Below are positions 10,257 through 54,826 of a stretch of 64,000 nt of DNA, piece after piece (the first letter of the stretch is position 1; each line of letters opens with the position of its first letter). Location: NCBI RefSeq assembly GCF_017357825.1, contig NZ_CP046072.1, positions 496,001 to 560,000 of the forward strand. Reading direction: 5' to 3'. The translations under genes and the position numbers were made by a program. This DNA comes from Sulfurimonas aquatica. GTDB lineage: Bacteria > Campylobacterota > Campylobacteria > Campylobacterales > Sulfurimonadaceae. The notes beneath the pieces are model-generated. The model searched no databases. It was not told where the DNA came from and saw nothing but the letters and a program-made list of their open reading frames with translations.

Positions 10257-10880
10257 ATGATGAGTATTAAAATTAGAAAAGCAATAGCTGAAGATAGTCC
10301 TTTTTTAGCTCAAATGATATTGCAAAGTACACGTGCTGGGAAAAAAGATGGCTTATTTGATCTTCTTTTTCAAACTAACGATAATAAAATTGTTTTGAGT
10401 AAATTAGAAGAGTTAACTAAGGCTCAAGCTAAAAGTCATTGTAGTTTCTCTAATTTTTTAATCGCAGAACTCGATGGAAAAAGCGTTGGAACTCTTTGTA
10501 GCTTTGAACCTAGAATAGCGACGAAAGAGACATTTGAAGAGGCACTCATCGAGATTGGATGCAGAGATTTTGAAGATCAACTTGAAGTTATCTATAATTG
10601 TAAATTTGATTTAAACAAGAGAACGTTAATGTTTGATTTTCTTGAAGAAGTTGAAGGTCTTATAGATGTTGGAATTTTAAAAGAGCTTATGCAAAAAAGT
10701 CTTTTAACAGCAAGACTTAAAGGCTATAGAATAGCTCAAACAATCATAGAAATTGGCTCACTTGAGACAGAACTTTTTTATAAAAAATTAGGGTTTAAAG
10801 AAGTAGCACAAAGTCAATGTGAACTTTATAAAGAGAGATTTGGCCGTTCTGGTCTTATGCTTCTAGCTATAGAATTTTAG
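10257..10880 (+). CDS. GNAT-family N-acetyltransferase
   Basis: Cytosolic acetyltransferase-like protein of 207 aa. The N terminus (IKIRKAIAEDSPFLAQMIL) is the usual first strand/helix of a GNAT fold, LIAELDGKSVGTLCSF is the beta-2/3 hairpin, and the C-terminal TAQTIIEIGS-like region plus YKKLGFKEVAQSQ is the GNAT motif near the fold's end. The acetyl-CoA loop is poorly conserved (LTARLKGYRIAQTI), so the substrate is unknown. The NhaC-type antiporter gene begins about ten bases downstream, so the two are probably co-transcribed. Confidence 0.78.
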   Translation: MMSIKIRKAIAEDSPFLAQMILQSTRAGKKDGLFDLLFQTNDNKIVLSKLEELTKAQAKSHCSFSNFLIAELDGKSVGTLCSFEPRIATKETFEEALIEIGCRDFEDQLEVIYNCKFDLNKRTLMFDFLEEVEGLIDVGILKELMQKSLLTARLKGYRIAQTIIEIGSLETELFYKKLGFKEVAQSQCELYKERFGRSGLMLLAIEF

Positions 10881-10890
10881 GGGTAAACTT

Positions 10891-12258
10891 ATAGAACTCT
10901 CTGCCCTCTCTTTAGTCCCTTCACTTCTAGCTATAGTCTTAGCCCTTTATACAAAAAATGTAATATTATCTCTTTTTACTGGAACCATATTAGGCCTGCT
11001 GATACTAAATGAGTTCTCATTTATGAGCACTCTTGAAGCAGCATATGAGCTCTATTTAACAATTTTAACTACCGGATGGATTCTTAATACATTAGCATTT
11101 GTTGTCCTCCTTGGAAGTATTATGGCTGTTATTGAAAAGAGTGGTGGAGTAGGTGGCTTTGTTGACTTTGCTCTTCATAAAAAACCTTTTGTAAAATCTA
11201 AACGCTCAGCACTACTCCTAAGTTATATAATTGGAGTTGTCGTATTTATTGAAACGTCTATAACGGCATTAGTATCTGGAGCTGTAGGTAAGCCATTTTG
11301 TGATAAGTATAAAATTCCATATGCAAAGCTTGCTTATGTGTGTGACTCTACAGCAGCGCCGATAGGCTCTTTAATAGTTATTAATGGATATGGTGCTTTA
11401 CTGCTGGGGCTTATCTCAACTCAGATTGATAACGGCGTATTAACTGGCAACGCTTTAGATATTCTCCTTGATTCAATCGTATTTAATTTTTACGCGATAT
11501 CTGCATTAATAGTAACTTTTTTAGTGATATGGTTTAGTATAGATATAGGACCAATGAAGTATGCAAAGTACTCTAAAGGTCACTCAATTAAGAATAATAA
11601 AATTAATAGTATGTACTTAATGCTATTACCAATTTTTATAATGTTAATATTTATATTTGTATTTTTATATATCACAGGTGATGGAAATATATTAAATGGA
11701 AGTGGCTCTAATTCTATACTCTACACCGTTTTAACAACCCTCTTTTTTACGCTTTTTTACTATGTTGCAACTAAAAATATGACTCCTAGTGTTTGGCTTA
11801 AAATATCATTGCATGGTGCGAAAAGATTTTTTGCAATTGCTATGATATTAATTTTTGCTTTTTCAATTGGTAACGTAACGGTTGAGCTTAAAACGGGTGA
11901 GTATCTAGCGTCTTTAGCAAACGAAAACTTAAATGTTATATTTTTAGCGGGAACTATTTTTCTTTTAGGGAGTATTATTTCATTTTCTACGGGTACGTCT
12001 TGGGGTACGTTTAGCATTATGATTCCTATTGCTATTCCGATGGCAGTAGGCATGGATGCAAATATAGCTTTGTGCATAGGTGCGGTTATCTCAGGTGGTA
12101 TTTTTGGAGACCACTGCTCACCAATCTCTGATACTACGATTATCTCGTCTATGGCAGCTGATTGTGATGTTGTAGAGCATGTAAAAACACAATTGCCTTA
12201 TGCCTTAGTAAGTGGGGCTATCGCATTTAGTCTGTTTATTGGGTTGAGTATAATTTAA
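10891..12258 (+). CDS. NhaC-family Na+/H+ antiporter, putative AUA start
   Basis: Inner-membrane antiporter of the NhaC (PF03553-type) family: about ten hydrophobic helices and the diagnostic STGTSWGTFSIMIPIAIPMA and GGIFGDHCSPISDTTIIS segments near the C terminus. The first ATG (11023) would cut off the first membrane helix (LVPSLLAIVLALYTKNVILS), which is encoded upstream in the same frame. That upstream frame has no ATG, GTG or TTG before the stop at 10870; the best start is ATA 10891, seven bases after AGGGG (10879-10883). With that start the protein is 455 aa, normal for the family. Family call secure; start inferred. Confidence 0.85.
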   Translation: MELSALSLVPSLLAIVLALYTKNVILSLFTGTILGLLILNEFSFMSTLEAAYELYLTILTTGWILNTLAFVVLLGSIMAVIEKSGGVGGFVDFALHKKPFVKSKRSALLLSYIIGVVVFIETSITALVSGAVGKPFCDKYKIPYAKLAYVCDSTAAPIGSLIVINGYGALLLGLISTQIDNGVLTGNALDILLDSIVFNFYAISALIVTFLVIWFSIDIGPMKYAKYSKGHSIKNNKINSMYLMLLPIFIMLIFIFVFLYITGDGNILNGSGSNSILYTVLTTLFFTLFYYVATKNMTPSVWLKISLHGAKRFFAIAMILIFAFSIGNVTVELKTGEYLASLANENLNVIFLAGTIFLLGSIISFSTGTSWGTFSIMIPIAIPMAVGMDANIALCIGAVISGGIFGDHCSPISDTTIISSMAADCDVVEHVKTQLPYALVSGAIAFSLFIGLSII

Positions 12259-29612: not shown

Positions 29613-31412
29613 TTATTTATAATATTCTTTTATAGTTTTTGCATCTTTTACATTTAAAACAGTACTTATTTCCTCAATACTTAGGTTTTTAAGCTCGTTG
29701 AATGTTCCAAAGTGTTGCAGGAGCTTTTTGACTTTTGCCTCTGATATGCCATACATATTAAGAAGCTTGCTCTCTTGGTCAAGTTTTAATTTTGTTTTTT
29801 TATGAAAGGTTATAGCCGACCTATGTGCTTCATCTCGTAAATTTTGAACCCATTGTAGTCTTTTATCGCTATTTTTTAATCTAAAAAGGTCATCTTTTGT
29901 ATAAATGATGTCGTTTGCTTTGCCTTTTGCTCGATGAGCTTTTGCATCAACTTTTTCTTTTGAAATGGCTATAACATCTATAAAGACAGAAGATGAGTTT
30001 AGTATTTCAATAGCTAGCTTTAAAAGGGTAGCCCCACCATCGAGAATCCATAAATCTGGAGGAGAACTCTTAGTAAAACTATTGACTCGCTTTGTGAGTG
30101 TTTCTCTCATCTGTGCATACTCATCTTTGGCTTCTAAGTGATAAGTCCTATAAGACTTTTTGTCAAACTTGGAGTTTTCATACACTATCATAGCCCCTAC
30201 AGTTGCAACTCCTGACATATGTGAGTTGTCAAAGACTTCAACACGACTTGGAAGTTTCTCTAGACTACATAACTCTTGAATCTCATGGAGGATTTTTGTG
30301 TTGTTTACATTTTTATCTCTGTTTAAAAGTTCATCGGCATTTAGTATAGCCAGCTCTATAAGATCTTTTCTTTTTCCTCTTAAGGGCCTCGATATAGATG
30401 CTTTACGTTCAAAAATCCTACTTAGATGCTCTTGCAGTAGGTTAAGTTCTTCTAAATCTTTAGAGATGAGTATGGGAGCTATGATTGGGGGTTTTATATC
30501 CTTGTAGAAATCTAGTAGAGCTCTAAATAGAAGCTCATTTTCATCAAAACCTTCATTAATATTAATATAATCATGAGAGGAGGATATGATTTTACCTGAA
30601 CGCATAAATATTCTCACAACCACTGCTTTAGAAGAGGTGTTTCTTACCGCAAAAATATCATAATCTTCATTAGTGGCAAAGTCAATATCGCTAGTAATTT
30701 CTGACCTACTTATCTTTTGTACTCTATCACGCAGCTCTGCTGCCTCTTCAAAACGCATCTCATCTGCATAAAACTCCATCTTTTCTTGGAGTTTATGTAT
30801 TAATGTCTTTTTATTTTTTATATATGAGGTGGCTTTATCTATCTCTTCTTGGTACCTCTCTTTTGTAACTGGAAGCTCGCAGGGACCAAGGCACTTATCT
30901 ATTTGATGGTATAAACATAGTTTTTTTGATTTCAGGCACCCTTTTTTTTGTACAAGTTTTGTGAGTTCATATACAGAGTCTAAAATATCTCTAGCTCCAA
31001 TAGAGTAGGGGCCATAATAGAGTATGTCTTTTGAATTAATGATTTTTCGTGTTATATCGAAACGCGGGTACTTTTGAGATTTATCTAAATATATGTATGG
31101 ATAGGTTTTATCATCACGGAGTAAAATATTGTATTTTGGATTTAACTGCTTAATGAGTGAGTTTTCTAGTATGAGCGCATCATGTTCAGAGTTAACAACT
31201 ATATAGTTCATAGAAACAGTCTGTTCTATCATCTTTTTTATTCTCAGAGATAGATTCGAATTAGCACAAAGGGTAGGCGTAAATTGCCAATAACTCTTCA
31301 CGCGATTTGAAAGATTCTTTGCCTTACCAATATAGAGTAGACGACTGTTTTTGTCAAAATATTGATAAATACCAGGGGATGATGGAAGTTGTTTTATAGT
31401 TTGTTCAAGAAT
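29613..31412 (-). CDS. uvrC: Excinuclease ABC subunit C, putative AUU start
   Basis: Dual-incision nuclease of nucleotide excision repair. The full protein needs the GIY-YIG domain, encoded upstream of the first canonical codon (GTG 31301): [20 protein letters not shown] then GKAKNLSNR. No ATG, GTG or TTG exists in that frame before an in-frame stop; the best start is ATT 31412-31410, seven bases after AAAAGG. This gives 599 aa, normal UvrC length. Further features are the UVR domain ([18 protein letters not shown]), the endonuclease domain ([22 protein letters not shown]) and C-terminal HhH motifs. It overlaps the DUF721 gene by eight bases. Confidence 0.93.
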
Positions 31413-31848
31413 TGTGATGCCTTTTGATTATCTCTTGTATACTTTTTGCTAGAGCTCTTAGTTTTTCATCTTTTATGTTTACTTCAATATCACCACTTGC
31501 TCTTTCACTATATAATTGTAACTCTTTTGGCTCAATATCTAATTTTATATCTGGAGTGTGTGTTACAAATGCTTTAATCTCTTTTATAGGAGTTTCTTTA
31601 CATTCGTCTGGTGTGTGAAAATTTAAAGCACTTTTAATATTTTGTATATTATTATCGAACTCTTGCTTAGCACCCGGGTGATTTAAAACAAAAAATAGTG
31701 TATCATTCTTTATATATGCGAATTTTATCATTTTTTGAAGAGCGGGTACAAAGATTGATTGGATTTTTTTAATGCATTTGAATTTAGCGAGTTTTGTAAA
31801 TTGAGGTTTATCTTGAATGGAATTAATAATTTGAGCAGCATTTTTCAT
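31405..31848 (-). CDS. DUF721 (DciA-like) protein
   Basis: 147 residues, cytosolic. The middle ([20 protein letters not shown]) matches the conserved strand-helix of DUF721 proteins, a family that includes DciA, the DnaB helicase loader of many bacteria. The C-terminal part is unrelated charged sequence. Function in this phylum is not established, so only the family is suggested. It lies directly upstream of uvrC with overlapping ends and divergent from a small lipoprotein gene whose 5' end overlaps its own. Confidence 0.55.
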
Positions 31849-52232: not shown

Positions 52233-52516
52233 TTTAAATCCTTGTTTGTTTGAGTACACCATATCTCTAAGGTGATAAAAATCTAATATAAAGTTTTCTT
52301 TTAGGGTGAATGTACTGTAAACAAGAAGTTAGCAATATAAAGCAGACTAAAGATGTAACTTGAATCATCTTTTCTTGGTCACAGTATATCTGAATAAAAT
52401 ACAAAGTACAAGGGGTACTTAAAAGCTTGTAATAAGTAAGGTGAATCTTTTATGGAGTTTTCATCTTTGAGCTAATCTGATATAATCAGTTTATCATTAT
52501 ACGAAATGGAGTTCCT
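52233..52516. other. Divergent region between cold-shock and dynamin-like genes
   Basis: About 284 bases. The plus-strand side carries TATAAT (52481-52486) and GGAG (52508-52511) for the dynamin-like operon. A 21-codon out-of-frame ATG ORF (52506-52571) lies here but has no ribosome site. The remainder is AT-rich with no clear structure. Confidence 0.5.
52481..52486 (+). promoter_or_regulatory. -10 box for the dynamin-like operon
   Basis: Perfect TATAAT in context CTGATATAATCAG, predicting transcription start near 52493, only about 24 bases before the proposed ATC start. Confidence 0.55.
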
Positions 52517-54826
52517 ATCAGCTTATCAAGTAACTATTTTTTACTTTATCATGGTCTTAGTTTTGAAGTAGATGAAATAAAAGAATTGGATGAAAAAATA
52601 GATGATGAGACTTTTTTTGAAGTCTCAGCTCTTCTCCTCTCTTTAAACAGAAAAACTTTGGAGACTTTTTTAAATCTGAAGAGTTTTTCTCCACTTATGA
52701 GTACTCTTACTGATGAAAAAGTAAAAAACATAGACTCCCTCTACAGCCTACAAAATTCCATAATAAAACATTTTGATAAGCATAGCAGTAAAAATAATAT
52801 TCATCATTTACACTCTGCATTTAACTATTTAAAAGAGGAGTCACTGCTTGATAGTCTCTCTTACGAAAAGCTTATCTCGCTCTTTGATCCATCACTTTTA
52901 AACAAAAAAAATAGAAGTGAAAAAGAGTCACATGTGTATGAAAATTTTCATACGGATAAAAAGGATATTTTAGTCACTATCGAGGAGTTGAAAAAACTTT
53001 TTAGTGTTTCAAAAAAACTAGACTCTATAGAAGAGTACTTGAACTCTCAAACATTTTCTATAGGAATTACGGGCGTTATGAACGCAGGTAAATCTACTAT
53101 GTTAAATGCCCTTATGGGCAAAGAGATACTTGGAACAAGCGTAGTTCCTGAAACTGCCAATCTTACTGTCGTGAAGTACTCACAAACGCCATCTGCAAAA
53201 GTACTCTATTGGAATGAGCAGGAGTGGGGCTCTATTGTAAAGAGCGCTCGGAGTATAAAGGCGATGAGTAGATATGTGAGTGAGACAGAGAACTATTTTA
53301 AAGATATGTTGGACGAATACATACTAAAAGAGACTCGAGTTGATGATATATCAATAGAGAGTCTTAGTGAGTATACTTCTGCAAATGACAAAAAATCAAA
53401 CCTTGTTAAGTCTGTGCAACTAGAAACGTCTTTAGAGTTTTTGCAAGAGGGCATTGAAATCGTAGATACTCCTGGTTTGGATGACACGGTAATTCAAAGA
53501 GAGCAGATCACCAAGGAGTATCTATCAAAGTGTGACGTAATGCTTCATCTTATGAACGTAAGTCAGAGCGCAACTCTTAAAGACATAGAGTTTATCATTG
53601 ATGCTGTTTTATACCAAAACGTCTCCAAGGTCCTTATAGTTATAACTCGCGTTGACATGGTCTCTAAAGAGGATGTGTCTGAGGTTATTGAGTATACTAA
53701 AAGTTCTATCGCAAGAAGACTTTATGAGCAAAATGAAGACGCCAAACTTGATTATATTTTACAAACGCTGCACTTTATTGCACTCTCTGGAAAAATGGCC
53801 CTTCTTCATAAGACGCAAAAAAGTCAAGAGGCAATAAACGCAGGCTATAGCTTAGAACAAACGGGTATACTGGAGATAGAAGATTATATCAAAGAGACTC
53901 TTTTTGGAAAAAAGAACTCTCGTAGTTCACTTATAATCCACTCTGCAAAAAGTCGTTTAAAAGAGAGTATAAATAAAGAGCTAGAAGCACTCAAATATGA
54001 GAACTCGCTACTATTTAAAAGCGAAGATGAGATAGATGAAGAGTTAAATGAACTACAAACAAAAAAAGTCAAACAGCAAGAGAGTTTTGAGTTGCTTAAG
54101 CAGCAGATTAGTGGTTATGAAGTAGAACTTTCAAATTATCTTACAAGACTACAAATCTTCTTAGAAAATGAGTTGAAATCACTCCAGAACGTTCTTAGAC
54201 AACGTTTAATTGATGAGACAAAGTACACACTGCAAAAACAAAAGGCGACACCAGAGCTAAAAGATATTCAAAGAATTATTCAGAGTGCACTTAAGCATGG
54301 TTTGATGGATATCATTAGAGAATACCGTTATAAGTTTGTTAAAAAATCAACAGAAATTTCGGAGATAATTAGACTACAGTATGATGAGATAGATGAAATG
54401 AAAGAGGGTAGTTTTAGTGCATTTGAACATCAAGAAATATTTGCTGAATCTTACGAGAATGGCTTCTTAACTTCTAACTATGAAGTTTTACTACAAAGAG
54501 TCTCAAAACTTTTAGGCATTGCCTCTATGAAAAAACTACTAAACGTGGATGAAGAGTTAGCTCTTATAATTAAAGATGAGTTTATCTCTATTGAGAGTGA
54601 GATAAAAGTAAAGGCGAAAACATTAAGCAAAGAGTTACTCAATGAGTTGATATTAACTATTAATAGACCAATAACTGAACTTCAAGAGGGCCTATTAGAA
54701 AGTGAAAATATGCTAAATAATCATATAAAACTACTTAAAGAAAATGTAAATTCAAAAGAGCTCAAGTCTTTAGAAATTTATGAAAAAATAAAAAATATAG
54801 AGCTTATTTTGCAGAGGTACTCTTAA
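52517..54826 (+). CDS. Bacterial dynamin-like GTPase, first of pair, putative AUC start
   Basis: 769 aa (from 52517), dynamin-like. GTPase motifs: G1 GVMNAGKST near residue 186, G3 DTPG, G4 TRVD. Flanking helical regions form the neck/trunk; the C-terminal third is long coiled-coil. With its neighbour it matches the paired DLP1/DLP2 of Campylobacter jejuni (Cj0411/Cj0412), which assemble on membranes. Canonical TTG 52586 lacks a ribosome site and cuts open frame; ATC 52517 has GGAG five bases upstream and adds SLSSNYFLLYHGLSFEV. Gene call strong, start tentative. ATG of the next gene overlaps its stop. Confidence 0.88.
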   Translation: MSLSSNYFLLYHGLSFEVDEIKELDEKIDDETFFEVSALLLSLNRKTLETFLNLKSFSPLMSTLTDEKVKNIDSLYSLQNSIIKHFDKHSSKNNIHHLHSAFNYLKEESLLDSLSYEKLISLFDPSLLNKKNRSEKESHVYENFHTDKKDILVTIEELKKLFSVSKKLDSIEEYLNSQTFSIGITGVMNAGKSTMLNALMGKEILGTSVVPETANLTVVKYSQTPSAKVLYWNEQEWGSIVKSARSIKAMSRYVSETENYFKDMLDEYILKETRVDDISIESLSEYTSANDKKSNLVKSVQLETSLEFLQEGIEIVDTPGLDDTVIQREQITKEYLSKCDVMLHLMNVSQSATLKDIEFIIDAVLYQNVSKVLIVITRVDMVSKEDVSEVIEYTKSSIARRLYEQNEDAKLDYILQTLHFIALSGKMALLHKTQKSQEAINAGYSLEQTGILEIEDYIKETLFGKKNSRSSLIIHSAKSRLKESINKELEALKYENSLLFKSEDEIDEELNELQTKKVKQQESFELLKQQISGYEVELSNYLTRLQIFLENELKSLQNVLRQRLIDETKYTLQKQKATPELKDIQRIIQSALKHGLMDIIREYRYKFVKKSTEISEIIRLQYDEIDEMKEGSFSAFEHQEIFAESYENGFLTSNYEVLLQRVSKLLGIASMKKLLNVDEELALIIKDEFISIESEIKVKAKTLSKELLNELILTINRPITELQEGLLESENMLNNHIKLLKENVNSKELKSLEIYEKIKNIELILQRYS

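Follow-up and report, generated by a model that had tools for sequence, protein, structure and literature searches.

A uvrC gene of Sulfurimonas aquatica that probably begins at AUU, in a genome that also appears to hold conserved near-cognate starts

Known near-cognate start codons

Two Escherichia coli genes, infC (PMC5472188) and pcnB, carry a native AUU start codon in an otherwise ordinary gene, and pcnB is reported to be translationally limited by its AUU. In Staphylococcus aureus, near-cognate starts preceded by a Shine-Dalgarno (SD) sequence are described for cvfC1 (AUU) and for ccpN and citZ (both AUA); these sites have extended SDs, their starts have been tested, and those of cvfC1 and ccpN are conserved (PMC13009471). 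By the same account, the S. aureus AUU and AUA sites give around 10% of the AUG yield in poor medium, and ccpN reaches up to 30% in rich medium. The sigR gene of Streptomyces starts at GTC, is repressed by IF3 and is the upstream member of a coupled pair, in which the functionally tested near-cognate codon limits one of the two genes (PMC5472188). Re-initiation close to an upstream stop codon in E. coli is described as being helped by an SD sequence and lowered by excess IF3 (PMC2268962). On an evolutionary scale, the published count of switches from AUG to AUU is 1 in 61,358 ancestral AUG starts (PMC5622118).

The gene considered here is the uvrC of Sulfurimonas aquatica, found in a 64,000-nucleotide stretch of its genome that is referred to below as the window. 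It resembles the E. coli genes in having what appears to be a native AUU start in an ordinary gene, the S. aureus genes in the presence of an SD sequence before a near-cognate codon, and sigR in that such a codon would limit one gene of a coupled pair. There are also differences. The infC and pcnB starts are characterised, whereas the AUU of uvrC is a proposed start found in one genome. In contrast to the S. aureus cases, uvrC has a moderate SD and a start site that its relatives do not share, and unlike sigR, it is the downstream gene of its pair.

The uvrC frame and its proposed start

The uvrC frame runs from stop to stop over 604 codons on the minus strand, at 29613-31427. The features that bear on its start are as follows.

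29613 to 31412, minus strand: uvrC from the proposed ATT start to the stop codon, 599 amino acids (frame, domain matches and TIGR00194)
31410 to 31412, minus strand: ATT, the proposed start codon (frame, SD energy and weakly structured RNA)
31413 to 31415, minus strand: ACA, the codon aligned with the ATG or GTG of 126 of 127 congeneric uvrC N-termini (alignment)
31416 to 31418, minus strand: ATC, a second near-cognate candidate, 1 base after AAAAGG (sequence)
31420 to 31425, minus strand: AAAAGG, Shine-Dalgarno-like, 7 bases before ATT (sequence and duplex energy)
31428 to 31430, minus strand: TAA that closes the uvrC frame upstream (sequence)
31299 to 31301, minus strand: GTG, the first canonical start of the frame, within the GIY-YIG domain (frame and domain match)
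31405 to 31848, minus strand: the upstream gene, 147 amino acids, weakly DciA-like, overlapping uvrC (DciA match with E 0.013, below cut-off)

The earliest canonical start is GTG 31301-31299, at codon 43, with no ATG, GTG or TTG before it. Read from ATT 31412-31410, the gene has 599 codons (29616-31412). Counted from the first base of this ATT, the TGA of the DciA-like gene (31407-31405) begins five bases on, the two frames overlap at 31412-31405, and the two genes are probably translationally coupled. An Rfam scan of the window gave three ordinary hits, a purD motif and two tRNAs, and none near uvrC.

The product is a UvrC by its full-length profile match and by its GIY-YIG, UVR and RNase H domains. 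When begun at ATT, it matches TIGR00194 (uvrC) from residue 3 of 599 and from profile position 2 of 574, with 519.8 bits (cut-off 285.45; E 9.6e-156). PF01541, PF02151, PF22920 and PF08459 all score over their cut-offs, with the GIY-YIG domain, the UVR motif and both RNase H-like parts present in the frame; the match to PF14520 (helix-hairpin-helix) lies below its cut-off. The GIY-YIG profile match covers residues 18-100 of the frame, which places GTG 31301 inside the domain, and a protein begun there is missing the first part of it. The earlier note had placed this domain upstream of the first canonical start, had found no such codon between that start and the upstream stop, and had pointed to the ATT seven bases past AAAAGG as the beginning of a 599-residue UvrC; its coordinates and counts are borne out throughout.

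Selection on the N-terminal codons

The codons that lie between ATT and GTG 31301 evolve as protein. Across 125 of the 127 N-termini, median pN and pS against the window are 0.152 and 0.741 for codons 5-37, similar to the 0.118 and 0.747 of codons 38-108, and the comparison of relatives with each other gives 0.158 and 0.708 for the first region and 0.140 and 0.735 for the second. This purifying selection argues that translation begins upstream of GTG 31301 and, as the region is kept as protein, the sequence has to be explained by a start that is not canonical or by an error in a base. Initiation at GTG 31301, which would yield a UvrC without the first part of its nuclease domain, is highly improbable: that codon has in its favour its place as the earliest canonical codon of the frame, but purifying selection acts on the 33 upstream codons that were tested, and the surrounding RNA has more structure (-9.7 kcal/mol), though not more than its shuffles.

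By comparison, the RNA that holds the SD sequence and the AUU is weakly structured, at -1.8 kcal/mol, and folds no better than shuffled versions. Pairing of AAAAGG with the 3' tail of the genome's own 16S rRNA, for which the four copies are identical and the mature 3' end was assumed, gives -3.8 kcal/mol with a 12-base tail, equalled or bettered in 6 of 126 congeners, and -2.6 kcal/mol with a 9-base tail, equalled or bettered in 29 of 126. This is a match of moderate strength, whose standing among the congeners shifts with the 3' end assumed for the 16S rRNA. The locus therefore shows the marks by which a gene with a near-cognate start was recognised here, namely a conserved and selected coding region with no in-frame ATG, GTG or TTG upstream of it, and an ATT at normal spacing from an SD sequence.

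The uvrC start across the genus

The comparison of uvrC starts that the earlier note had proposed was made over 135 genomes of the genus, 129 of which, the source genome included, have uvrC. N-termini were compared for 127 copies from 125 other genomes; three genomes were left out, with a contig-edge piece, a C-terminal piece and a weak hit. A canonical start is present in all 127 and absent only in the uvrC of the window. In 126 of them the start lies one codon upstream of the position of the window ATT, as ATG in 124 and GTG in two, and at this place the window has ACA, two changes away from ATG. A near-cognate codon at the uvrC start was found in 0 of the 127. Since all the congeneric N-termini read have a canonical start, and 126 have it where the window has ACA, the loss is specific to one lineage: the missing canonical start is a derived state, seen among the genomes read in the source genome only. 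The remaining copy, a divergent second uvrC (L207, G079:C9) that is 51% identical, has its ATG one codon downstream of the position of the window ATT; its genome is listed with 8% contamination, so that this copy is perhaps foreign.

The earlier note's interpretation is partly supported. For a start at AUU stand the lack of a canonical start, the selected N-terminus, the usable SD, the weak structure and the native-looking AUU and AUA starts described below; against a regulatory role of that start stands a state found in none of the other N-termini, nearly all of which start canonically one codon upstream. The earlier note had named a canonical codon, upstream and in frame in relatives, as grounds against AUU. 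Such a codon does occur in them as the note worded it, but the window has ACA there, which offers no canonical rescue.

Judged by eye, the end of the upstream gene appears to fall at the same place in many congeners, and the ungapped alignment is clear. In some of the closest congeners (L112, L113) the upstream gene appears to be slightly longer, which makes the ancestral codon behind the ATT uncertain. The window sequence forms a lone branch in a tree built from 31 UvrC proteins, beside a clade of 11, all of which start with ATG. The length of its branch, 0.16 changes per site, is like that of the other lone branches (0.15-0.25; the median of all end branches is 0.074), which gives no impression of a decaying gene.

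The genus comparison also bears on how ribosomes might enter the frame by other means. Frameshifting or read-through from the upstream gene, which would make a start codon unneeded, draws on the overlap of the two frames at 31412-31405; it was rejected, and may be regarded as barely credible, because many congeners pair a similar overlap with an ordinary ATG. The UCU-UGA at the site would, moreover, appear to give no slip that preserves pairing. An improbable alternative, though less so than frameshifting, is that translation starts at ATC 31418, or at several near-cognate codons, selected with little precision by ribosomes that re-initiate close to the upstream stop. This ATC is in frame two codons upstream of ATT, a gapped alignment made by eye could turn it into the relic of the lost ATG, and 12 bases ahead of it the sequence weakly matches the 16S tail; but at 1 base from AAAAGG it is too close to use that SD, from which ATT is 7 bases away.

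An assembly error and the start-codon survey

The most serious alternative is that the assembly holds a base error, and that the true sequence has a canonical start and an ordinary uvrC. A single wrong base, at 31410 or 31416, would suffice; changing the base at 31416 could produce ATG-ACA, which is a common start context in congeners, with one extra codon. The state is shown by one assembly only, listed with 4.22% contamination, and the published switch count from AUG to AUU (PMC5622118) is very low, an estimate that makes the switch a rare route just as base error is a rare one. Against an error, the assembly is nearly finished (two contigs, 99.99% complete), and the codon at the congeners' start, ACA, is two changes from ATG. 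A base error is thus unlikely, if the least so of the alternatives.

The quality of the assembly was also judged from a survey of the window and 20 further stretches of the same genome, in total 464 kb with 398 non-overlapping open reading frames of at least 100 codons. The survey sees only genes that run far before they reach a canonical start, and 2,769 bases were masked; the best 32 of the 398 were taken as candidates, and those of the 32 that are not named below were judged by eye from short prefixes. Two other genes without a canonical start were kept, and both have that state conserved in relatives, which gives no sign of a poor assembly in a scan that is blind to frameshifts. A generally poor assembly is accordingly unsupported by the 464-kb sample, which cannot detect frameshifts.

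Several candidates were set aside. In an HDOD gene (L276), an acetyltransferase-like gene (L277) and the dynamin-family gene at 52481-54826 (plus strand), the Pfam match begins downstream of the first canonical start; a HipA-like gene (L290) has a canonical GTG just before its domain; and two frames of L284 that were scanned had no Pfam match and were put aside with the other frames of L284 and L288. The dynamin-family gene reaches its first canonical start, a TTG, at codon 36, and the stretch before it is mildly coding-like.

The antiporter gene and its AUA

The first of the two kept genes lies within the window itself and belongs to a Na+/H+ antiporter family (PF03553).

10891 to 12258, plus strand: gene of the Na+/H+ antiporter family, counted from its proposed ATA start (PF03553 and conservation)
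10891 to 10893, plus strand: ATA, proposed antiporter start, conserved in 64 of 74 other genomes read (alignment)

Its first canonical start comes only at 11023. The sequence that leads to the proposed start reads AGGGG-TAAACTT-ATA, with AGGGG at 10879-10883, seven bases before the ATA at 10891, and the upstream stop TAG at 10878-10880. Besides the source genome, 114 genomes of the genus have a match to the gene, and this codon was read in 74 of them: 64 have ATA, one has ATC, eight have ATG one codon upstream and one has ATG at the same codon. Including the window, 66 of 75 genomes have an isoleucine codon here, and 62 of these 66 are without a canonical codon upstream in frame; in the other four (L293, L400, L437, L439) a TTG precedes it by three to nine codons. 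As ATA makes up 40% (896/2233) of the internal isoleucine codons of the same sequences, its use in 64 of 65 is not ordinary isoleucine usage, although the genomes are related and do not count as independent.

Two genomes from two other genera of the family (L300, L301) have ATC at the antiporter start. Two more from these two genera (L298, L299) have neither a canonical nor an isoleucine codon at the aligned place, and have ATA two codons on with no canonical codon upstream; a third genus (L302) has GTG two codons upstream. Among 18 genomes of other families, six (L303, L305, L306, L308, L310, L311) carry a canonical codon, ATG or TTG, at the aligned position and the remaining 12 have a canonical codon two codons upstream, or six in one genome. 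As other families are canonical here, the near-cognate start is a trait of the family, not of the order. The upstream stop, 4-13 bases away, lies in varying frames, which argues against frameshifting. A literature search, with subscription journals mostly outside its scope, found no antiporter with an AUA start codon.

The rnpA gene and its AUU

The second kept gene is rnpA, at L287:15744-16100 on the minus strand (G000:C1:2155744-2156100), identified by PF00825 and TIGR00188. Its frame, of 118 codons, opens where rpmH is still being read, in the 3' end of that gene, and lacks a canonical codon until codon 111; the second codon is ATT, nine bases after AAAGG. The arrangement recalls that of Thermus, where rnpA and rpmH likewise overlap and share initiation signals (PMC9841429), but there rpmH is nested in rnpA and the two starts are AUG, whereas here the rnpA ATT lies inside the 3' end of rpmH.

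ATT stands at this codon of rnpA in 30 of 30 loci of the genus, the source genome included, and in 29 of 29 further loci of the genus and order, the loci read being the best-scoring ones of the 129 and 118 genomes with a match. None of these 59 loci has a canonical codon upstream in frame, and the nearest downstream is at least six codons on. The L34 codons that overlap the site force part of this conservation. Of 20 genomes at a greater distance, eight have the ATT in frame, four have ACT with a TTG nearby, one opens later with a TTG, and the remaining seven frames were not placed by the motif used; a TTG close by in genomes that lack the ATT fits a role of ATT as the rnpA start in the others. 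A literature search, again with subscription journals mostly outside its scope, found no rnpA/rpmH or RNase P protein with an AUU start.

The RNA around the rnpA ATT (L287:16038-16128, minus strand) folds far better than its shuffles (-26.5 kcal/mol, z -4.97). Such structure could hide the weak start, or may only reflect the overlapping coding.

Autoregulation of AUU use through infC was considered for this genome and rejected, since TTG is found at the likely infC start in the source genome and in 27 of 28 congeners (L111, L214-L241; one was not located by the motif), unlike the AUU of E. coli. In the source genome the codon after this TTG is ATT.

Probable initiation of uvrC at AUU

Taken together, we consider it probable that uvrC lost the ATG of its congeners and is now translated from AUU 31412-31410 into a full-length UvrC of 599 residues, probably in smaller amounts. 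This ATT is the best start candidate of the gene and probably its initiating codon, a role made credible by the conserved AUU (rnpA) and AUA (antiporter) starts in the same genome. Ribosomes that finish the DciA-like gene would stop within a few bases of the AUU, or else bind at AAAAGG, and this sequence would keep the 30S subunit at the AUU. The initiator tRNA would then pair imperfectly and with reduced efficiency, and the product would be full-length UvrC, probably at a lower level.

Initiation at the AUU itself, coupling, reduced yield and sensitivity to IF3 are the parts of this explanation that we infer. A lower yield is expected because the near-cognate sites of S. aureus give about a tenth of the AUG yield in poor medium (PMC13009471). 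The earlier note's suggestion that AUU would cap UvrC synthesis is plausible, although the restriction of the state to one genome among those read counts against a regulatory role. Counting against AUU itself are its presence in one assembly, the great rarity of switches from AUG to AUU, the ATC two codons upstream, the moderate SD match and the lack of a universal rnpA ATT among the more distant genomes. A literature search for uvrC joined with an AUU start codon found none, with subscription journals mostly outside its scope, and nothing on topic came up for ATT starts in Sulfurimonas or for ribosome profiling in Campylobacter.

Near-cognate starts as a possible standing feature

Beyond uvrC, we lean towards a wider reading, with less assurance than for uvrC itself, in which near-cognate starts are standing and conserved in much of the order. 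The rnpA AUU would lie inside the end of rpmH across many families, and the antiporter AUA, or AUC in some genomes, would serve most of the family read, with uvrC having newly joined them in one lineage. Each of the three starts is found where an upstream gene ends, either at that end, inside it or just past it, so that weak starts would set the yield of the downstream gene in coupled pairs. Near-cognate starts are known as a class, and the more valuable result lies in the conserved rnpA AUU and antiporter AUA. Because most annotation takes ATG, GTG or TTG for granted as start codons, such genes are likely to be truncated or missed.

If the rnpA and antiporter starts are indeed conserved as such, the fidelity of IF3 would influence RNase P, ion transport and, in the source lineage, excision repair. 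In uvrC, a start codon would have been caught as it passed from ATG to AUU on one branch, while the relatives keep the old state. A DNA-repair gene of a sulfur-oxidising bacterium is here found without a normal start, and most likely begins at a rare and weak AUU.
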